Source: Tannerella sp.
Lineage (GTDB): Bacteria; Bacteroidota; Bacteroidia; Bacteroidales; Tannerellaceae
NCBI GenBank assembly: GCA_031282485.1
Contig: JAITDQ010000032.1
Span: 1 to 16,590 of the forward strand
Direction of reading: 5' to 3'
Length of the DNA: 16,590 nucleotides
The position numbers and the translations under genes are program-made. The notes below the pieces were generated by a model. The model did not search any database. It saw only the letters and a list, made by a program, of their open reading frames with translations, and was not told the origin of the DNA. Positions 4,134 through 13,586 of the stretch are shown here, one piece after another. Positions within the stretch are counted from its first letter, which is position 1. The number at the start of each line of letters is the position of its first letter.

Positions 4134-5642
4134 TTATTTCCACAGCGGGTGCTGTTCAAGATTGATATTCCGTCCCAATTCATTTACAGGAATAGGGTAT
4201 ACGTAATATTTTTTGTTTGTACCGATGTTTATTCCTTTGAGCGCCACGCGTTCTTCCATACAATTCATTCGCTTATAATCGTACCAGAGATGACCTTCAA
4301 AGCATAACTCAACCACTCGCTCCCATATAAGCGCCTTATTAAACGCATCTTTATCCAAACCGGCGAGACCTTCAAGCCCGGCGCGTTCCCTTACGAGGTT
4401 TATACCGTAATATTTGTCGTACGTCCCGCCTGAACCTGCATTATTCACCGCTTCGGAATGCATCAGTAATACATCCGAATAACGCGTAAAATGGTAGTTG
4501 AGATTGGAATTTTGATCGCCTACGCCTGTTTCGTCGGGATCGGTATACTTCCATGTATGAACCATACCCTTGTTCAGGTCGAAATCTTCACCCCAAACTT
4601 TTATTTCTCCGGTTTGTGTATCTTTGAAAGATAAGATTATATTTGTCGCCAGACGTTTGTCGCCGGGATTCAGGGCAAGCATGTCTTCATAAAAATTCAT
4701 GGTTCCCCCGAATGAAGACCAGCCGGCCATGCCGCAAACATTTTGGTCGCGGATACTTGACATGTTAACCCAGTTTGATCCGTTCAGGTTTTGGTGAAAT
4801 TCCGCGTCAAAGATATATTCTCTGTTATGTTCTCCCGCCTCTTTGAAGTTAATACCATAGTTGGGGTCAAGCCCGTAAGTGCCGGATTTGATAATTTCTT
4901 CACATTTGGAAGCGGCCGATGCGTAGTTCTCTGTTTTATTCCATGGATATCCTGCCATTGTAAGATATGTTTTTGCCAGAAAAGTTTGGGCAGCGCCTTT
5001 CGTCGCACGTCCGACATCTTTTCCCGAATGGCTGACGGGAAGCGCGGATTCTGCAAATTGAAAATCTTCAATGATTTGCGCAAACACATCATCGCTTGTT
5101 CCCATGTTGGGAAGGTTCTGATCATTCTGTTCGGACGATGTCGTTAAGGGGATATTGTCGAACAGGCGTATCAGGTAAAGATAGGCCAGTCCGCGTACAA
5201 AACGCGCTTCGCCTTCTAATTGTTTGATTCTTGCCGGATCTCCGTCTTTGATGCCGGGTATTTTTTCGATTGTTATATTTGCCCGGAAAATCACTTGATA
5301 AAAGAATTTCCATACAAATTCGATACCGTCCGTATTCGCTGTCCACGTGTAATCCTGAAAGGCTAAACGATATGGGACGGTGGATGCTTGCGCCGAAGAA
5401 CATTCCGCCGGATATTCGCCGATCATTAATGCTGCACGGTGAAAGGATATGTCGCCGTCTTCCGCACTGACAAGCCGGCTGTATATGGCATTTACGGCAG
5501 CTTCCGCATCTGCTTCCGTTTTGTAAAAGTTGTTGGGCGATATAAAGTCGTACACTCTTTCCTCAAGGAAAGCATCAAAACAGGATGTGAACATTCCGGT
5601 AAACAGGAATCCCGCAAATAATATTTTATATATTGATTTCAT
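4134..5642 (-). CDS. susD-like: SusD/RagB family outer-membrane glycan-binding lipoprotein
   Basis: The product is 502 aa, normal for SusD. Residues 1-20 are a lipoprotein signal peptide ending in GMFTS before Cys21, the expected lipidation site. SusD hallmarks are present: FYKTEADAEAAVNAIYSRL (39-57), EARFVRGLAYLYLIRLFDNIPL (145-166), the C-terminal HFTRYSDVLLMHSEAVN, then ERVVELCFEGHLWYDYKRMN, and a final YPIPVNELGRN. It sits on the cell surface as the lid of the SusC transporter, capturing oligosaccharides. It begins 28 nt after the susC stop, so it is translated from the same mRNA. The glycan specificity cannot be read from the sequence. Confidence 0.97.
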   Translation of the reverse strand: MKSIYKILFAGFLFTGMFTSCFDAFLEERVYDFISPNNFYKTEADAEAAVNAIYSRLVSAEDGDISFHRAALMIGEYPAECSSAQASTVPYRLAFQDYTWTANTDGIEFVWKFFYQVIFRANITIEKIPGIKDGDPARIKQLEGEARFVRGLAYLYLIRLFDNIPLTTSSEQNDQNLPNMGTSDDVFAQIIEDFQFAESALPVSHSGKDVGRATKGAAQTFLAKTYLTMAGYPWNKTENYASAASKCEEIIKSGTYGLDPNYGINFKEAGEHNREYIFDAEFHQNLNGSNWVNMSSIRDQNVCGMAGWSSFGGTMNFYEDMLALNPGDKRLATNIILSFKDTQTGEIKVWGEDFDLNKGMVHTWKYTDPDETGVGDQNSNLNYHFTRYSDVLLMHSEAVNNAGSGGTYDKYYGINLVRERAGLEGLAGLDKDAFNKALIWERVVELCFEGHLWYDYKRMNCMEERVALKGINIGTNKKYYVYPIPVNELGRNINLEQHPLWK

Positions 5643-5670: not shown

Positions 5671-8600
5671 CTAAAATACGATATTTACTCCCAACGTGAA
5701 TACACGGCTTACTGGATACGGGTTCCAGTCAACACCCGGTTGCAGGTTGCTTCCGCCTTTACTGCTTACTTCGGGATCAAAACCCGAATAATCGGTCAGG
5801 GTAAGCAGGTTTTGCGCGCTCATGTAAAGCCGGAGGGATTCGATAGATTTTTTTATCGGGAAACGATAACCCAGCACAACATTCTTTAAACGAATATAAG
5901 AGCCGTCTTCAATCATCCACGAAGAAAGAGGCAGATAAGCATGTGCGGCCGTACGCGGAGCAGGGATATTGGTTTGGGTATTTGTCGGCGTCCAGTAGTT
6001 CAGCATATCGCGGCGTTGTGAAGAAGAAGGCACTATCATCGCATATTCGCCCCGTCCGAGTTGCAGAATGTCGTTGCCGTAACTTCCGTTTATAAAGATA
6101 TTAAAGTCGAAGTTTTTATAAGAAAAATTGTTTGTCCAGCTGAAAATAAAGTCGGGATTGGGGTCTCCGATAATTGCCCAGTCTTCGCGGTCAATTTTAC
6201 CGTCCTGATTCAAGTCTTTGAATTTCGGCGAGCCTAAACCGTCATTTGTTAATGCTTTAGGATGTTTGGCAACCGTTTCTCCGCTGGAATTTACAATGGT
6301 AGCGTCTAACATTTCCTGCGTTTCGAACACTCCGTCATATACATAATAATTCCATATCCCGACGGGATAACCTTCTTCCAGCCAGCTTCCGTCGACCCTC
6401 AAGTGGCCGGACAGATAACCTCCCGGTCTTCCCGGCGTAAAGTCCGGTAAACTTACCACTTTATTCCTGTTCATGGAATACATCAAACCGGTGTTCCACG
6501 TAAAAGCTCCCGGATTATTGTTTGTTATCAGGTCGTAGTTTAGTCCGAGTTCAATACCCCAGTTTCGTATGGTTCCATTATTGCTGAAAATTGAACCGAA
6601 ACCGGAAGATAAAGGTATGGATACATCCCATAACAGATTATCCGTATTCTTATTGTAAAAATCGGCCGTAAGGGTCAGGCGATTGTTAAACATTCCGAAA
6701 TCCAGTCCGGCGTCGAATGTAGAAGTTGTTTCCCATTTAAGGTTTGAATTTGGAATTTTATTCGGAGCGAAGCCGGTCGCTTTCACTCCTCCCAGATTGT
6801 AGGAATACTGTGCCAGACTGGCCAGCGAAGCGAAGTTGCTGAATTCCTGATTTCCGGCTAATCCGTAGCTCACACGCAGTTTTAAATTGTTTAACCAATC
6901 GGCGTCTTCCATAAAAGCTTCTTCGGAGACGCGCCATGCCACTGCGGCAGAAGGGAAAAATCCCCATTTATTATTAGCGCCGAATTTCGATGAACCGTCG
7001 GCACGCCCTGTCAGTGTGACCAGATAGCGGTCTGCATAATTATAATTGATGCGTCCCAGCCACGATGCCTGCCGCGGAGTATTTCGCCAAGACGAAGGAA
7101 CGCCCATCACCACACCGGCCGAACCCATGCTGTTATCTTCAAGCAAATCGTTTACAAATCCGGAAACAGTGCTTTGTCCGCCTAAATACTCAAACGTTTG
7201 TAGCGTTAACCCGCCTGTTGCGTTAATCGAGTGGTCGCCGATCCGGGCGCTGTATGTCAAAAGATTTTCGTTCAAATAGGACGTAGACCGGTTCCACGAT
7301 TTGGATGCAACGCCATTAAAACTTTCACCCTGGAGTACGGTAGAAGGATAATACACATCGCGAAACGCATTTGAATAATCCGTACCGCCGCGAATTTCCA
7401 GACCTAAGCCTTTGAGGATCATATTCAGGTTGAATTTGACGGATACATTCGCCATTACCCTGTCTATTGTTGAATAGTCTTTGGATAGTTTTGCCAACCC
7501 GTAAGGATTGCCCGTTGTAGTGCCATAAGGCGTCTGGTTCATGGTCGAGAGACTGCCGTCATCATTATATACATACATGGTGGGCGGGAGCGCCAATGCC
7601 CCGTTAATGACACCGCCGGCCGTGCCGCCTCCGTCACCTTCCGAAAATGCTACGTTCGAAAATGTGCGGCCGGCCGTCAACGAGGTCTGGACGGTTACCC
7701 AATGGGATAGCTTCGTATCAACATTGGCGCGTAGAGATGCACGTTTTAAATCCGAATTGATCACGATTCCTTCCTGATCGAAATAATTACCGGTGATTGC
7801 GAACTGCGTGCTTTCGGAACCGCCGTTTATACTCACTTGGTGATTATGCATCAACGCTTCACGGAAAATAAGATCCTGCCAGTCGGTACTGTTATTGCGA
7901 TAATAGGACGGGTCTTTCCATTTTTCGTCGGCGCCGCCGTATAAAGGCGCTAAACCTGCGTTTGCCGCGGCGATGTTGGACATTGTTGCAAATTCTTCTC
8001 CGTTCATCATATCCATTTTCTTTGTGATGTTTTGCACACCGAAATAACCGTCGTACGAAACTTTTGTTTTGCCGGTTTTTCCTCTTTTTGTTGTTATCAG
8101 AACAACACCGTTAGCTCCTCTGGAGCCATAGATTGCCGTTGCCGAGGCATCTTTAAGGATTTCGATGGATTCGACGTCGTTCGGGTTAATCGTAGCCATG
8201 CCGTTATTAGCCAGCGATCCGCTTTGGTATGCGGAGGCCATACTTCCGGCGGCAATCGGGAATCCGTCGATTACGAAGAGAGGCCCGTTTCCGCTTGAAA
8301 GGGAATTGCCGCCGCGTACGCGTATGGAAATTTGTGCCCCCGGAGCGCCGGATGCGCTTACTACCTGAACGCCGGCCGCCCGTCCCTGAATCCCCTGGTC
8401 GAGCGATGTCATAGGCAGTTTCTGCAGTTCTTCCGATTTGATGGACGACACAGAGCCTGTAAGGTCGCTTTTCTTCACCGTACCGTATCCTACAACCACG
8501 ATCTCTTCGAGTGCACGGGTATCTTCTTCCATTGTGACATTAATTACGGTCTGATTGCCTGCCGTGATTTGTTGCGGGACGAAACCGATATAGGTAAATT

Positions 8601-8829
8601 CCAATACGGAATTGCTTCCCGCTACTTCAATCGTATATGCGCCGGTTATGTCGGTGACAGTTCCTTTGGTTGTTCCTTTTATGGTAACCGTTACTCCTGC
8701 CAAAGGGTCGTTTAACGCATCCCTTACCACTCCTGTGATTTTTTGTTGAGCAAATATTGCTGTCGTACTCAACAGAAATACGGACATTAATACCGCCCGT
8801 TTCCTTAATAAACCAATGATTTTTTTCAT
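5671..8829 (-). CDS. susC-like: SusC/RagA family TonB-dependent outer-membrane transporter
   Basis: The product is 1052 aa, typical length. Residues 1-28 are a signal peptide (LLSTTAIFAQ). Residues about 29-102 are the carboxypeptidase-regulatory-like domain (ITGVVRDALNDPLAGVTVTI). There is a TonB-box-like segment EEIVVVGYGT (108-117), then the plug domain, including SIRVRGGNS (168-176) and FVIDGFP (185-191), with ESIEILKDASATAIYGSRG typical of SusC. The 22-strand barrel fills the rest and ends in the aromatic terminal strand FTLGVNIVF used for barrel assembly. There is no N-terminal STN domain, so it is not expected to signal to a FecR anti-sigma factor. This fits control by the upstream HTCS, not by the sigma/FecR pair at the right. 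It imports oligosaccharides with SusD, energised by TonB-ExbBD. Confidence 0.97.
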   Translation of the reverse strand: MKKIIGLLRKRAVLMSVFLLSTTAIFAQQKITGVVRDALNDPLAGVTVTIKGTTKGTVTDITGAYTIEVAGSNSVLEFTYIGFVPQQITAGNQTVINVTMEEDTRALEEIVVVGYGTVKKSDLTGSVSSIKSEELQKLPMTSLDQGIQGRAAGVQVVSASGAPGAQISIRVRGGNSLSSGNGPLFVIDGFPIAAGSMASAYQSGSLANNGMATINPNDVESIEILKDASATAIYGSRGANGVVLITTKRGKTGKTKVSYDGYFGVQNITKKMDMMNGEEFATMSNIAAANAGLAPLYGGADEKWKDPSYYRNNSTDWQDLIFREALMHNHQVSINGGSESTQFAITGNYFDQEGIVINSDLKRASLRANVDTKLSHWVTVQTSLTAGRTFSNVAFSEGDGGGTAGGVINGALALPPTMYVYNDDGSLSTMNQTPYGTTTGNPYGLAKLSKDYSTIDRVMANVSVKFNLNMILKGLGLEIRGGTDYSNAFRDVYYPSTVLQGESFNGVASKSWNRSTSYLNENLLTYSARIGDHSINATGGLTLQTFEYLGGQSTVSGFVNDLLEDNSMGSAGVVMGVPSSWRNTPRQASWLGRINYNYADRYLVTLTGRADGSSKFGANNKWGFFPSAAVAWRVSEEAFMEDADWLNNLKLRVSYGLAGNQEFSNFASLASLAQYSYNLGGVKATGFAPNKIPNSNLKWETTSTFDAGLDFGMFNNRLTLTADFYNKNTDNLLWDVSIPLSSGFGSIFSNNGTIRNWGIELGLNYDLITNNNPGAFTWNTGLMYSMNRNKVVSLPDFTPGRPGGYLSGHLRVDGSWLEEGYPVGIWNYYVYDGVFETQEMLDATIVNSSGETVAKHPKALTNDGLGSPKFKDLNQDGKIDREDWAIIGDPNPDFIFSWTNNFSYKNFDFNIFINGSYGNDILQLGRGEYAMIVPSSSQRRDMLNYWTPTNTQTNIPAPRTAAHAYLPLSSWMIEDGSYIRLKNVVLGYRFPIKKSIESLRLYMSAQNLLTLTDYSGFDPEVSSKGGSNLQPGVDWNPYPVSRVFTLGVNIVF

Positions 8830-8873
8830 GAAACCGATTTGTTTTTAATTAATAAAATAAATAATTGTCGGCG

Positions 8874-8881
8874 CAAAGATA
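8874..8881 (-). promoter_or_regulatory. Probable susC promoter, -7 box without a recognisable -33 box
   Basis: On the minus strand TATCTTTG matches the Bacteroidota -7 consensus TAnnTTTG and lies 44 nt upstream of the susC ATG. At the expected distance (19-20 nt upstream) the sequence is CTAT-like, not TTTG; the nearest TTTTG is 26 nt away. A good -7 with a poor -33 is what an activator-dependent promoter would look like, in line with HTCS control (inference). Confidence 0.55.
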
Positions 8882-8907
8882 TTCGTTTCTATTTTTCGCA
8901 GATAGAA

Positions 8908-8945
8908 CAAAATGGCTATTAACTAACACTTTTTCGCAAAATGGC
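8908..8945 (-). promoter_or_regulatory. Paired 9-bp direct repeat, candidate HTCS operator
   Basis: GCCATTTTG (minus strand) occurs exactly at 8916-8908 and again at 8945-8937, 29 bp apart, close to three helical turns. If the start point is near 8870, the repeats lie around -38 to -46 and -67 to -75, the usual zone for an activator touching RNA polymerase. Binding by the HTCS AraC domain is an inference; a 9-bp match in an AT-rich gap could be chance. Confidence 0.35.
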
Positions 8946-8967
8946 GGGTGAGTGTAATAAAATACCG

Positions 8968-8982
8968 ATTTGTACAACAAAT
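8968..8982. promoter_or_regulatory. Short palindrome upstream of susC
   Basis: ATTTGT-ACA-ACAAAT is a perfect 6-bp inverted repeat around a 3-nt centre, about 100 bp upstream of the predicted susC start point. It could be a protein-binding site; nothing identifies the ligand, and a 6-bp arm can arise by chance. Confidence 0.25.
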
Positions 8983-9068
8983 ATGCACGCGGAGAAAACT
9001 TAACGTTTATTTTCTACGTTCTTTCTGTTCCGTTCAGATGATTTATAACCATTCGAAACAGAGTTTTT

Positions 9069-9437
9069 ATTCCGTCCTTCCGGGTTCCGGCTGTTCGGAA
9101 TTTAATTTGGATTCCGTCCTTCCGGGTTCCGGCTGTTCAGAATTAATTTAACATTCCGTTCTTCCGGGTTCCGGCTGTTCAGAATTTATTTAACATTCCG
9201 TCTTTCCGGATTCCGGCTGTTTAGAATTTATTTAACATTCCGTTCTTCCGGGTTCCGGCTATTCAGAATTTATTTAACATTCCGACCTTCCGGGTTCCGG
9301 CTGTTCGGAATTTACTTAACATTCCGACCTTCCGGGTTCCGGCTGGTCAGAATTTATTTAACATTCCGTTCTTCCGGGTTCCGGCTGGTCGGAATTAATT
9401 TAACATTCCGACCTTCCGGGTTCCGGCTATTCGGATT
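9069..9437. repeat. 42-bp tandem repeat array, eight full copies plus one degenerate copy
   Basis: Copies start at 9069, 9111, 9153, 9195, 9237, 9279, 9321, 9363 and 9405, with exactly 42 bp between starts and no indels. Each unit on the plus strand reads ATTCCG, 5 nt, CCGG, 3 nt (GTT, or ATT in copy 4), CCGG, 5 nt, then C(A/G)GAAT (TAGAAT in copy 4, CGGATT in copy 9), then a 9-nt AT-rich linker usually ending TTTAAC. The ATTCCG arm and both CCGG blocks are identical in all nine copies. The outermost copies are the most worn (copy 1 linker ends TTTGG, copy 9 fades at about 9437), as usual in tandem arrays. Every minus-strand frame is stopped in each unit, and the plus-strand frames are stopped by TAA in the linker, so it is not protein-coding. 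It lies 4-5 nt past the HTCS stop codon. I do not recognise the family. Confidence 0.97.
9381..9419 (-). other. Longest hairpin in the repeat array, just after the HTCS stop
   Basis: At the junction of copies 8 and 9, GGTCGGAAT (9387-9395) and ATTCCGACC (9405-9413) form a perfect 9-bp stem around a 9-nt AT loop. Past a 2x2 mismatch, CCGG (9381-9384) pairs with CCGG (9416-9419), giving 13 pairs in total. It starts about 23 nt after the HTCS stop codon on that transcript. It has no following U-run, so it is not a classical intrinsic terminator; a role in 3'-end protection or termination is inferred. Confidence 0.5.
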
Positions 9438-9441
9438 TTTC

Positions 9442-12400
9442 CTATGACCTGTGGCGTTCGGAAAGAAACTCGGACGGCGATTTTCCAAATTCTTTCTTAA
9501 ATATGCGTGAAAAGTAAGAAGCATTGTCAAAACCTGTCCGTATCATAACATCGTTGATAGACGTGTTTTCTTCGCTAAGTATCCGTGCCGCTTTGCGCAG
9601 GCGGTAGTTGCGTATAAATTCCACGACCGATTGCCCGGTCATAGCCTTAATTTTACCATAAAGCGTACGCCGGCTCATCGCTAATGACGAGGCGATATAG
9701 AATACATCTATCTCGGTATTCGACAGGTTTTTCTCTATCAGATCCACCAGTTGTTTCATAAAATCGGCGTCGCGTTTGTTCACGTGAGTTTCACCGTTAC
9801 CGGTATTTGAAAAATAATGTTTGGAATAATATTCCCGGATCCTCATCTGCTGGTTTAAAATGTTTGATAACGTGAGCAAGAGGATTTGTTTGTTTACCGG
9901 TTTTTCAAGAAAAGCATCCGCTCCGGACTGTAAGCCTTCTATCTGGTTCTCCGAGCCTGTTTTGGCCGTTAACATAATAACCGGGATATGGGACGTTTCG
10001 ATATTTCCTTTAATCGTTGTACTCAATTCGACGCCATTCATTCCGGGCATCATAATATCCGTAATTATTATGTCGGCATAATCTTCTTCGAGTATTTTCA
10101 ACGCTTCAAGCCCGTTTGCAGCCTTTTTCAGATTGTAGTATTCGCCAAGCAATTCGGCCAACAATTCCCTGAAGTCGTCATTGTCTTCGACGAGCAGTAT
10201 TTTCTTTTTATTTTGAATCGCCGGTTCCTGTTGCGTACCGGTTATGTTTTTTTCGTTATTTGCAAGCTCATGAATTACGGAGGTATCGGATAAATAAATG
10301 TTTGATTTGCCGTTGTCAAAATCTTCTTTTTTGTAGATGGAAGTATCCGGCGAAAAACCGATAACGATATCCGAGCCGGTATACCGTTCACTGTAAATAG
10401 CGATATAGCCCCTGTGCAGTTCGATCAGGCTTTTCACCAAAGTCAGTCCTATACCGGAACCTAAGTGCCGGGCGCCGTCGGATTCGTTTACCCTGTAATA
10501 ACGCTCAAAAACAAAACCGATAGATTCGCCCGAAATGCCGACTCCGCTGTCGCTGATGACCATTCCGAACATTTTTCCCGGATTTTCATTCGCTCGTACA
10601 ACAATGTTGTTGGCGTATGAACTTTTGAATTTACTTATGTCCGCCAAAGTGGAAATCTTTATTATTCCGTTGGCGGAAGTATACTTGAATGCATTATTCA
10701 GCAGGTTAAGGACAATTTTTTCCATTACTTTCACATCAAAATAAAGTCCGTCGGGCACATCCGGGTCAATTTCCGTTGTGAAATCAATTTCTTTCTGCCG
10801 GGCATATTCGTAGAAATCGGAACTGTTGTCTATTATGAATTTATTCCAGTCTCCTTGTCGGAGGTTCAGCTTGATTTTATTATTCTGGAGCGAACGAAAA
10901 TCCATTAATTCGTTAATCAGTGCAAGCAGTCGTTTCGTGTTGTTTTCGAGTACGGGTAAATACCGGGTGACAGGATTACCGGATTTCACGGTTTCCAATG
11001 TTGCCAAAATTAAAGATAACGGTGTTCGGAAATCATGCGACACATTGGTAAAGAATTTAAGTTGTTCCTGATGAGCTTCCTCCTTTTGTTTCTTTTCCTG
11101 TTCTTCCAGATAGAATTGCAGTTTCAGTTTCCTCTGGTAGTTATAATATCTTATAATTGTATATATAACGGCGGAAAGCAGCAGGATATATCCCGTTATT
11201 GCCTGAAAGCTGAACCATGGCGCAGGTTTTATAATCACCGGAACAGATGAAAGTTCACCCCATACTCCGTCGTTGTTTGCCGTCATTATCTCGAACATAT
11301 ATTTACCTCCCGGTACTTTGGCATAGGACGCAATTCTATGATTTGCATCCGTTTCGATCCATCTGTCGTCATAGCCTCTGAGGCGGTATTTGAAGCGGTT
11401 TTTATCCGGGTTAAGATAGTTTGAAGATGTAAATTCGAACGAAAAGTTATTCCGGTTGTAATTTAACTTTATTTCTTTTGTCTGAAAAATAGATGTTTTA
11501 AGAGGCGAATCTTTTGTACTGGGGAGCACAGGGTAATTGTCAAGTAAAAAATCCGAAAGGATAACTTGTGGCTTATATTCGTTGTAAGCGTTTTTTACGG
11601 AATCAATGACCGTAAACCCTTCGTTGCCGCCGAAATACAGTTTTCCGGTTTTTGATTTGAAGGTGGAATACAGATAATAGGTATCTCCCTGCACCCCGTC
11701 CGATTTGTTAAATTTGTATATTCTGTTTGTTTCAATATCAAGACAAAATAATCCGTTATCGGTACCCATCCACAAATTCCCCGTCGCGTCTTCGTTCAGA
11801 CTTGATATGGCGTGTACGTCATATTTTGACAAATCGGCTTTACACGTCAGGCTTCGACTTGATATGTCGTACATGAGCAGACCGTTCCCGTTTGTACCTA
11901 TCCAGATAATGTTTTTTTTGTTGTTTGTTAATATGGTACAAATGTTAATGTTCTGGAAATCGGGAACATCGGAATGTTCGTAATCGGCAAAATATACGTT
12001 TTTGGTGCGAACGTCCATTATCAACAGTTGATAGGAGGATGTAATCCATAAAGTGTCGCCGTTACCCCTGTTAATATCGTTGATGTCCCCGTTTGACTGA
12101 ATCGTCGGCGCGAGGAGATCAAAATGTTTCGTTTTGTTGTCTTTCAACGAAAGATATGTAATCATGTCCCTGTTCAGAAGGTACTTGATCCAAATGCCGG
12201 AATCCGCTTCGGCTACGATTCTTGTAACATGATCCTCCTCCAGCATGTTGTTGTCGACCGTATAATGCGTGAATTGCAGGGTTTTGGTATCCAAACAATC
12301 CATTCCTCCGCGCGACGTTCCTATCCAAAGTTTATGGTTTGCGGTAAATAACAGGCTTTGTATGTTGTCGTACGTCAGGCTGTTTTTGCCGGGAGAATGT

Positions 12401-13563
12401 CTGAAATTTGTGAACTTGTTTGTTTTTTTGTCGTACCGGTTAAGGCCTCCGCCTTCCGTGCCAATCCACAGATAATCGTCGTCTTCTTCAAAGCAGCTGA
12501 CAACGGGATAACTCAATTCGTCGGTCATGGCATTGAACGATTTCAGTTTTTTTTGCTCATCCAAATTGATGAAACAGATGCCGCCGGAATAGGTTCCAAA
12601 CCATAAATTGCCCTGATTATCTTCCGAGATTCTCCAAACGGAACTGCTCGGTAAACCATAAGGATCGGTTCTATCGTAATAATAATGGGTATACTCGTCG
12701 TTTTCCGGGTTTAATATGTAAATTCCCCGCTGACTTGTTATCCAGATATGGCGGAATTTGTCAATAAACAGCGCTCTGGCGGAAACCCTCGTATCTCCGT
12801 CGGGATAAAAAAAGTCGTATCGTTTTATTTCCTTATAATTCCCGGTAGAAAGTACGATAAGACCTTTATTTTCGGTCAGTACATAAAGGAAAGAATCCGT
12901 ATGCGTCATGTCCGCAATATTATTGTATTGAGGATGAAGAAAAACATGATTGAACAAACCGTCGTCTTCATTATACATATATATATCACCGCTTAAAGTT
13001 CCTACGTAAATTCTGTTGTCTTTTGTGCAAATCGCGGAAGCGTCGTGTATCCGGCCTTTGTCGGATTCGACAGGGAAAAATTCAAAAGTTTTCCGGTCAA
13101 ATAAGCCGATGGAATGAGCGGTTGATATCCATAATCTATCATTTGAATCTTCTTTTACAAGATTAACATTACTCTGAAATAATAAATCAAAATTGTCCGT
13201 CAGCGGATTATACCTCAGTAAACCGAAATTTGATGTAATGTAAATATCCCCGTTTTTATCAAGTTCCAGTCTTCCGAATCCCCATGTTGCCGCAGATTCG
13301 GGTTTCTTCAGTTTATGCGTGTAATGCTTGAAGGTATAACCGTCAAACCGGTACAGGTCACGAACCGTAATGACCCATATAAAGCCCCATTTATCCTGTT
13401 TCACATCCCTCTGCCCGTTTGTACCGAGCCCCCCATAAGGCGATACACGCCTTATCTTATAATGCGTAGAACTTTCATTAGCCGATAACCCGGTCAGTGA
13501 AGCAAGTGTTAAAATCAATATGAACAGGAAATAATTCCGCGGATTTAATTTTGTGTTGTCCAT
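9442..13563 (-). CDS. Hybrid two-component system sensor/regulator (HTCS) with AraC-type DNA-binding domain
   Basis: The product is 1373 aa, the usual size. Order of parts: N-terminal signal/anchor (about 10-28, YFLFILILTLASLTG); two seven-bladed-type periplasmic propellers made of Reg_prop repeats (motifs such as LWIGTEGGGLNRYD, NLWMGTDNGLFCLD) to about 690; Y_Y_Y domain (about 698-774); one membrane helix (about 786-807); HisKA with phospho-acceptor His843 in NVSHDFRTPL; HATPase with N-box NLLNNAFKY (about 955) and G-boxes SDSGVGIS and GSGIGLTLV (about 1006 and 1038); receiver domain (about 1118-1235) with Asp1169 in TDIMMPGMNG; AraC HTH (about 1270-1369, ending FSRIFKKEFGKSPSEFL). All key residues are present. 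HTCS proteins bind PUL oligosaccharides and activate the adjacent susC. ATG 13561-13563 is chosen because it lies downstream of the promoter; an upstream in-frame Met at 13617 falls inside the -33 box. Confidence 0.97.
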   Translation of the reverse strand: MDNTKLNPRNYFLFILILTLASLTGLSANESSTHYKIRRVSPYGGLGTNGQRDVKQDKWGFIWVITVRDLYRFDGYTFKHYTHKLKKPESAATWGFGRLELDKNGDIYITSNFGLLRYNPLTDNFDLLFQSNVNLVKEDSNDRLWISTAHSIGLFDRKTFEFFPVESDKGRIHDASAICTKDNRIYVGTLSGDIYMYNEDDGLFNHVFLHPQYNNIADMTHTDSFLYVLTENKGLIVLSTGNYKEIKRYDFFYPDGDTRVSARALFIDKFRHIWITSQRGIYILNPENDEYTHYYYDRTDPYGLPSSSVWRISEDNQGNLWFGTYSGGICFINLDEQKKLKSFNAMTDELSYPVVSCFEEDDDYLWIGTEGGGLNRYDKKTNKFTNFRHSPGKNSLTYDNIQSLLFTANHKLWIGTSRGGMDCLDTKTLQFTHYTVDNNMLEEDHVTRIVAEADSGIWIKYLLNRDMITYLSLKDNKTKHFDLLAPTIQSNGDINDINRGNGDTLWITSSYQLLIMDVRTKNVYFADYEHSDVPDFQNINICTILTNNKKNIIWIGTNGNGLLMYDISSRSLTCKADLSKYDVHAISSLNEDATGNLWMGTDNGLFCLDIETNRIYKFNKSDGVQGDTYYLYSTFKSKTGKLYFGGNEGFTVIDSVKNAYNEYKPQVILSDFLLDNYPVLPSTKDSPLKTSIFQTKEIKLNYNRNNFSFEFTSSNYLNPDKNRFKYRLRGYDDRWIETDANHRIASYAKVPGGKYMFEIMTANNDGVWGELSSVPVIIKPAPWFSFQAITGYILLLSAVIYTIIRYYNYQRKLKLQFYLEEQEKKQKEEAHQEQLKFFTNVSHDFRTPLSLILATLETVKSGNPVTRYLPVLENNTKRLLALINELMDFRSLQNNKIKLNLRQGDWNKFIIDNSSDFYEYARQKEIDFTTEIDPDVPDGLYFDVKVMEKIVLNLLNNAFKYTSANGIIKISTLADISKFKSSYANNIVVRANENPGKMFGMVISDSGVGISGESIGFVFERYYRVNESDGARHLGSGIGLTLVKSLIELHRGYIAIYSERYTGSDIVIGFSPDTSIYKKEDFDNGKSNIYLSDTSVIHELANNEKNITGTQQEPAIQNKKKILLVEDNDDFRELLAELLGEYYNLKKAANGLEALKILEEDYADIIITDIMMPGMNGVELSTTIKGNIETSHIPVIMLTAKTGSENQIEGLQSGADAFLEKPVNKQILLLTLSNILNQQMRIREYYSKHYFSNTGNGETHVNKRDADFMKQLVDLIEKNLSNTEIDVFYIASSLAMSRRTLYGKIKAMTGQSVVEFIRNYRLRKAARILSEENTSINDVMIRTGFDNASYFSRIFKKEFGKSPSEFLSERHRS

Positions 13564-13586
13564 TTCGTTATTGTTTATTATTGCGA

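Follow-up and report, generated by a model that had tools for sequence, protein, structure and literature searches.

A 42-bp hairpin minisatellite between an HTCS gene and susC in Tannerella, probably an orphan of a dispersed array class often found upstream of DUF6261 genes

The MIRU-VNTR minisatellites of mycobacteria are dispersed intergenic tandem repeats, one of which lies beside a two-component system, and in type III toxin-antitoxin loci a short structured repeat array is found directly upstream of a gene, an arrangement that the DUF6261 loci described below resemble. Within the Bacteroidales, BrickBuilt is a MITE-borne 23-nt minisatellite of Porphyromonas gingivalis, whose repeat number varies between strains at one locus (PMC4596501). 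The array studied here is like BrickBuilt in being an intergenic, spacerless tandem array with predicted stem-loops and, more specifically, like BrickBuilt_13, which consists of internal repeats only (PMC4596501). REPIN/RAYT systems combine dispersed extragenic hairpin repeats with a repeat-flanked gene, and tandem REP arrays exist as well (PMC3116915); here, too, dispersed hairpin repeats recur beside a gene family.

The array between the HTCS gene and susC

The window analyzed here, a stretch of 16,590 nucleotides, is the whole of contig C222 of a Tannerella sp. MAG (G000), which is 80% complete and consists of 384 contigs. TRF located a tandem array at positions 9069..9439, with a period of 42 bp, 8.8 copies, 89% matches, 0% indels, and a score of 567; the single other row in the window at a score of at least 40 scored 40. 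The unit, with the consensus ATTCCGTCCTTCCGGGTTCCGGCTGTTCAGAATTTATTTAAC, is quasi-palindromic, and the strand of the array is therefore not meaningful. With a second repeat finder, start-to-start spacing was 42 throughout. The 8 full units were all distinct, sharing pairwise 34 to 41 of 42 positions, and since spacing was constant and indels were absent, the copies vary by point changes only. Both the constant head-to-tail layout and the restriction to point changes had been proposed in the initial annotation and were confirmed; of its proposed extent (nine copies at 9069..9437), the start held, but the true end is 9439, and of the ninth copy only a part is present.

With its 42-bp unit repeated head to tail, the array agrees with a bacterial minisatellite, whose units measure 10-100 bp. 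A protein-coding repeat was rejected: no ORF of at least 80 aa was listed over the array, and the 40- and 41-bp periods of its relatives are not multiples of 3. A CRISPR array was rejected as well, because the repeats abut at constant 42-bp spacing without unique spacers. A 16-base core of the unit (up to 2 mismatches) occurred 9 times in the array and elsewhere in the MAG as 3 single 2-mismatch matches on other contigs, and no second array of this unit was found in the MAG (80% complete). Given this completeness and the number of contigs, both copy number and uniqueness of the array rest on one short contig.

The array lies in a polysaccharide utilization locus (PUL) whose genes are on the minus strand. 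The HTCS gene (9442..13566; Pfam Reg_prop, Y_Y_Y, HisKA, HATPase_c, Response_reg, and HTH_18) has its stop codon 2 bp from the array, and the gene for a SusC-like TonB-dependent receptor (5671..8829, minus strand; Plug, TonB_dep_Rec_b-barrel, and CarbopepD_reg_2) starts 239 bp from the other end. It is followed on the same strand by a susD-like gene (4134..5642; SusD_RagB and SusD-like_3), an aldo/keto reductase gene, a DUF2264 gene, and a glyoxalase-like gene. In the 612-bp gap between HTCS gene and susC, the array occupies the HTCS-proximal part. It had been thought to fill the space from the HTCS stop to the susC promoter region, which holds on the HTCS side; on the susC side, 239 bp separate it from the ATG and 125 bp from a conserved susC upstream box (8901..8943, minus strand).

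This box was recognized by comparison with Parabacteroides acidifaciens, which has an orthologous gene pair (HTCS 65% and SusC 76% identical). There the gap measures 184 bp, the array is absent, and the box is kept at 93% identity over 43 bp (blastn against L014). Since that gap contains the box without the array, the array is not part of a conserved susC promoter and lies outside the conserved upstream region of susC. The box itself is strongly conserved and a candidate HTCS or promoter site. A closer HTCS ortholog (83%) in G008 was followed by neither array nor susC; as this locus is a contig end lacking both, it is uninformative on the junction. In place of susC, an ATPase-like frame was recognized by eye after this ortholog (L013:10092-10806, G008:C314), which suggests a rearranged PUL.

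Related arrays, their period, and their hairpin stems

A blastn search with the window array against 61 genomes, one per species, matched 6, all of one genus: the own MAG, G004, G008, G015, G029, and G031. In the five sister species, homologous arrays were found on many contigs and at unrelated loci. Their Pfam neighbors varied (TrkH, GFO/IDH/MocA oxidoreductase, ROK, AcrB-type pump, GH95, rhamnosidase, ABC transporter, alanine dehydrogenase, DUF6807, and DUF6261), and several neighboring genes had no Pfam match. The initial annotation had placed the array in the PUL as a device between HTCS and target and had named scattering of the unit over unrelated loci as the observation that would speak against it. 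Such scattering was observed in the sister species but not in the own MAG, with its single array of the window unit.

CCGG-type arrays were searched for with a pattern requiring two CCGGNNNCCGG cores at a distance of 27-33 bp. It matched 11 of 41 genus genomes, with the highest forward counts in G004 (68), G031 (46), G015 (20), and G029 (11), against 9 forward matches in three genomes for the reversed pattern used as a control; the few matches in G021, G024, G027, and G005 seem to be due to coding sequence or chance. Across the order, 21 of 393 genomes matched, and most of the listed places were single matches or 7-bp repeats. At G235:C1:2937117-2937254, CCGG-type units 42 bp apart were seen in another genus (g96), a member of which (G133) has 18 DUF6261 matches. 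Separately, 7- and 8-bp tandem repeats (AATGGTT, TTAATGG, AATGAGCA, and CGTTCAT) were noticed close to 42-bp arrays at L093, L098, L101, and L102 of G029 and G015.

In G004, arrays have common flanks of 75-95 bp with terminal inverted repeats (TIRs) of ~45 bp. Among 18 fetched loci of this genome, TRF reported an array in 14, and the TIR motif stood beside the array in 11 of these 14. Seven elements were recovered with both ends; four of them had TA outside each end and the other three outside a single end, which suggests a TA target. The motif (up to 3 mismatches) was present in 22 of 41 genus genomes, with up to 132 occurrences per genome and one to three in several, and the reversed control gave 1. 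The element itself, with the TIR TACTTCGCGCGGYAYGGTTTTGTGCATGGC, is an abundant miniature element (L137-L149, L152, G004). The own MAG has two TIR motifs, one of them beside an unrelated second array on C359 (41 bp, 3.4 copies, L220:8246-8384). No TIR motif was found in the window at 5 mismatches, and no inverted repeat was found between the 350-bp flanks of the window array at an E value of 0.01.

The period of the window array is common in the genus. In the single-contig congeneric genome G030, 20 evenly spaced stretches (400 kb; TRF score of at least 60) contained 94 arrays with a period of at least 12 bp: 49 at 40-43 bp, 7 at 20-23 bp, and 14 at 80-86 or 120-127 bp. This was the highest density of 40-43 bp arrays among the samples. 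Outgroup loci, which were flanks of HTCS-like genes and not random stretches, contained 7 arrays in 548 kb from mostly other Bacteroidota (1 at 40-43 bp) and 14 in 322 kb from other or unassigned phyla (0 at 40-43 bp). Thirteen other genus genomes, sampled on contigs picked for their known length (395 kb), yielded 26 arrays, 6 at 40-43 bp and 8 at 20-23 bp; in G000, G031, and G015, sampled on contigs at even steps, 1, 1, and 2 arrays were found at 40-43 bp and 2, 10, and 9 at 20-23 bp. The many 20-23 bp arrays of G015 and G031 (L240-L259, L280-L299) have half of the 42-bp period, and their dyads are longer than in shuffled units. Contigs of MAGs are probably depleted of arrays. For 20 of 36 arrays (fetched MAG loci plus the window), no gene was found on one side before the end of the stretch, and many arrays lay at contig ends. 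Short-read MAGs of the genus thus tend to break at 41/42-bp arrays, which should be kept in mind when such assemblies are used.

Units in G030 were mostly dissimilar, as 63 arrays (score of at least 50; 39-43 or 80-86 bp) fell into 44 sequence clusters; 7 of the 63 lay inside ORFs of at least 150 aa. A period near four helical turns, claimed initially for the window array alone, therefore recurs over the genus in arrays that are unrelated in sequence. Gaps carrying arrays in G030 were same-strand in 31 cases, divergent in 13, and convergent in 6, compared to a background of 142, 38, and 32; the arrays track the background of gene-pair orientation without clear preference.

Hairpin formation was assessed by permutation. 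Taken over its 8 full units, folding of the window array was better on each strand than in arrays with permuted columns (z of -3.5 and -3.8; 0 and 1 of 200 permutations as low); the z of -7.8 obtained by shuffling is inflated, because shuffles destroy the repetition. Consensus dyads were reached by at most 5% of shuffled units in 30 of 35 arrays (fetched sister loci and the window), although dyads were partly selected for at the G004, G031, G015, G029, G018, and G008 loci, which had been retrieved with the palindromic CCGG pattern or for their similarity to the window array. This array is among the five exceptions, as 15% of shuffled units attain its best consensus dyad. The G030 sample was unselected; there, the longest stem had a mean of 5.21, compared to 3.42 in shuffled units, and in 19 of 60 arrays the two top dyads were at least 19 bp apart (11% in shuffles).

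Changes in stems tended to preserve pairing. In some arrays, whole stems had been swapped with pairing kept, for instance from CCGG/CCGG to CCAC/GTGG in G031 and from GTCCGG/CCGGAC to AGTTAG/CTAACT in G029. Over 36 arrays with 203 units, 1238 of 1421 stem cells were Watson-Crick paired, the stem phase having been selected to maximize pairing; a shift by 1-3 columns left 164 to 650. Two-sided changes were found in 69 cells of this set, as many as in none of 500 shuffles (30.3 ± 3.6), and affected 24 pairs, a number reached by 1 of 500 shuffles; in G030, there were 9 such cells, compared to a mean of 3.75 and a maximum of 8 in 300 shuffles. Related units are not independent, so these shuffle counts are not probabilities. 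The window array had 0 two-sided compensatory changes. Among arrays of at least 3.5 copies with a stem of at least 5 (34 of 60 in G030 and 23 of 36 at other loci), divergence in G030 was 0.033 in stems, compared to 0.081 elsewhere in the unit, with stems diverging less in 29 of the 34; at the other loci, the values were 0.040 and 0.078, with stems diverging less in 18 of the 23.

DUF6261 genes as recurrent neighbors

DUF6261 (PF19775) first emerged as a repeated neighbor of the arrays. It is present in 31 of 41 genus genomes, with 55 matches in G030 (a 3.0-Mb genome), 15 in G013, 10 in the own MAG, and 0 in G026. Arrays were assigned to the 41/42 class if their period was 38-46, 80-90, or 120-128 bp, and were counted as upstream if they lay within 450 bp; loci with at least 350 bp upstream were considered. 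Such an array stood upstream of 24 of 31 Tannerella DUF6261 loci (22 of 29 unique loci after removal of two duplicates) and downstream of 1 of 34 (1 of 32 unique). Outside Tannerella, 14 genomes, each of a different genus, were covered; the array was upstream at 18 of 27 loci, which represent 10 of these genera, and downstream at 0 of 26. As a background, 42 of 293 genes had an array within 300 bp upstream, a rate that comes from G030 only. Eight Tannerella genomes contributed 34 unique loci out of 108 matches and the 14 others 27 out of 73; these had been selected among the best matches or because they fell in the G030 samples. With the simple ORF calling used, array-driven frames may be mistaken for genes. 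Outside the genus, 6 of the 18 upstream arrays had fewer than 2.5 copies (L357, L363, L364, L371, L380, and L381), as did 3 of the 22 in Tannerella (L339, L346, and L354).

In G026 (99% complete, 0 DUF6261), no array with a period of 20-23, 40-43, 80-86, or 120-127 bp was found in 160 kb, and CCGG-array matches were present in 0 of 10 genus genomes without DUF6261, compared to 11 of 31 that have the gene. Families of DUF6261-linked arrays also include orphans: the array of L326 has 8 such siblings among the sampled G030 stretches, and in G004, 9 of 13 other arrays were at least 87% identical to the DUF6261-linked array of G004:C3. If the 400-kb sample is typical, G030 carries several hundred orphan arrays. 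The window array, too, resembles DUF6261-linked arrays, in G004 (L150; 74% over 180 bp, 1e-29) and in G008 (L339; 76% over 96 bp, 6e-14). With a period of about 41-42 bp, hairpin dyads, and an intergenic position, it belongs to the same class, its consensus dyads being weak. Its neighbors are the HTCS and SusC genes, with no DUF6261 gene adjoining, and it is for this reason termed an orphan.

Several further features of these loci were noted. The two species G004 and G031 have the same array-DUF6261-DUF6807 locus (L136, G004:C3; L155, G031:C21), with units of 41 and 42 bp that have diverged. DUF6261 is greatly expanded in G030 (L260-L279, L326, L333, L341, and L349) and others, often with a 41/42-bp array in front, and several G030 paralogs have a common Pro/Lys-rich tail ending in DI-x-LPEE. 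The predicted model of the protein is a helical bundle, to which one subgroup adds a C-terminal beta domain.

These findings raise the question of whether DUF6261 genes and arrays form one functional system, in which the upstream array would be a control or target site, as DNA or RNA, and the orphans would be trans targets for regulation and/or amplification. The bias toward upstream positions in Tannerella and in other genera, the joint abundance of genes and arrays in G030, the absence of the gene from G026 and of arrays from the 160 kb sampled there, and the orphan siblings argue for it. Against it, the array is missing at 7 of 29 Tannerella and 9 of 27 other loci, the window contains no DUF6261 gene, and G022, which is without DUF6261, has one 20-23 bp array in 20 kb. 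Of the 31 genomes with DUF6261, 20 (G030 included) have 0 CCGG-array matches, as the pattern sees one kind of unit only. Binding of the arrays by the protein is hypothetical: 20 of 32 DUF6261 proteins have a pI below 7 (range, 5.2-9.3), there was no significant structural or fold match, and nothing scored above cut-off in PADLOC, NCBIfam, or PHROGs, the protein's own Pfam entry alone matching. In the parts of the literature accessible to us (including PMC7014623, PMC3925233, PMC10969869, and PMC5771137), neither 41/42-bp Tannerella arrays nor a function of DUF6261 are reported, and the single paper found with the name DUF6261 appears, from its accessible part, unrelated. We consider such a functional system rather unlikely as an account of the window array. 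In its widest form, which we put forward tentatively as a possibility, DUF6261 genes and 41/42-bp arrays would constitute one previously undescribed Bacteroidales system: each DUF6261 lineage would own an upstream array type, sequence would diversify with dyads and four-turn period kept, and the protein or locus would drive or use the orphans, including the window array.

Interpretation and comparison with known systems

With moderate confidence, we favor the reading that the window array is an orphan of a dispersed, mostly intergenic, and probably neutral class of hairpin minisatellites and has no dedicated role for susC. The class is carried by Tannerella and, beside DUF6261 genes, by other Bacteroidales. 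Its members have a period near 41-42 bp, array-specific unit sequences, and short-loop dyads longer than in shuffled units, in many cases joined by another dyad at roughly half a period; stems are less variable than the rest of the unit and compensated, most fetched G004 arrays lie inside the TIR-bearing miniature element, and many arrays are found just upstream of a DUF6261 gene. Because the class is scattered between genes, and often precedes DUF6261 genes, the window array is probably not a switch built for susC. A neutral minisatellite was among the options of the initial annotation, and it is now the best of them.

Slippage or template switching at the hairpins may both lengthen and shorten arrays of the class and, by copying one arm onto the other, would keep stems matched. 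They could spread partly as cargo of miniature elements, and the window copy would have landed just behind the HTCS stop, disturbing neither gene and being neutral or nearly so for susC. Several observations go against this reading: the window array has no inverted repeat between its flanks, no two-sided change, a best consensus dyad that 15% of shuffled units attain, and no second copy found in its own MAG. The constraint on stems could equally reflect selection for function, and the link to DUF6261 is not predicted by a purely neutral satellite.

A role as RNA seems improbable. HTCS read-through would here yield a chain of hairpins by which the HTCS message is stabilized or terminated and susC is shielded from much of the transcription, in agreement with the array's start 2 bp past the HTCS stop, its good folding on both strands, and the five terminator-like sites in 8600-9700 (1.7 expected), four of which lie within the array. 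These four are on the plus strand, however, opposite to HTCS and susC, and no Rfam family reached the gathering score in the window. Nor do arrays in general prefer the 3' ends of genes: in same-strand gaps of G030, 13 were nearer the 3' end of the upstream gene and 18 nearer the 5' end of the downstream gene, with another 13 in divergent gaps, and the respective numbers at other loci were 7 and 5. A PUL-specific role in tuning susC, as an insulator or as a phased array bound by protein, to which the exact 42-bp phasing and the position between regulator and target would be suited, is highly improbable given that related arrays lie beside unrelated genes, that P. acidifaciens keeps the susC box without an array, that arrays follow the gene-pair background, and that the G008 ortholog has no array after it, although it also lacks an adjoining susC. 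The proposal of a PUL device is not supported, and for PUL biology one candidate susC control element is removed.

Considering the minisatellite as an orphan of this class, we compared it and its relatives with the systems introduced above. MIRU-VNTRs belong to another phylum, are unrelated in sequence, and have, to our knowledge, no recurrent partner gene. Type III toxin-antitoxin loci differ in that DUF6261 has no match above cut-off in PADLOC, NCBIfam, or PHROGs and that many arrays have no DUF6261 neighbor; for the window array itself this assignment was rejected, as SusC and no known toxin gene lies downstream. The G004 arrays are like BrickBuilt in being inside a TIR-bearing miniature element. 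BrickBuilt has one 23-nt unit in one species, whereas the arrays here have 41/42 bp, many unrelated units, several species and genera, and a partner gene. A BrickBuilt-like element was rejected for the window array, which has no leader or tail TIRs and no multiple copies in its own MAG (80% complete), whereas TIRs flank most fetched G004 arrays. Unlike in REPIN/RAYT systems, the partner is DUF6261 and the arrays are long and tandem, of varied sequence and fixed period (PMC3116915). No RAYT gene (PF01797, E ≤ 0.001) was found in the own MAG (80% complete), G004, or G015; a PF01797 gene is present in 17 of 41 genus genomes. Extragenic palindromic repeats are dispersed, as in REPIN/RAYT systems, in the sister species, and the own MAG has a single array of the window unit.

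Dispersed tandem repeats are usually of one sequence family, whereas here mostly unrelated sequences have a common period and hairpin layout, and they recur before one uncharacterized gene family in several Bacteroidales genera. From this follow two testable questions: what fixes the period at 41-42 bp and what DUF6261 does. If a DUF6261-array system does exist, it would parallel REPIN/RAYT with a non-transposase partner and with a target defined by geometry instead of sequence.
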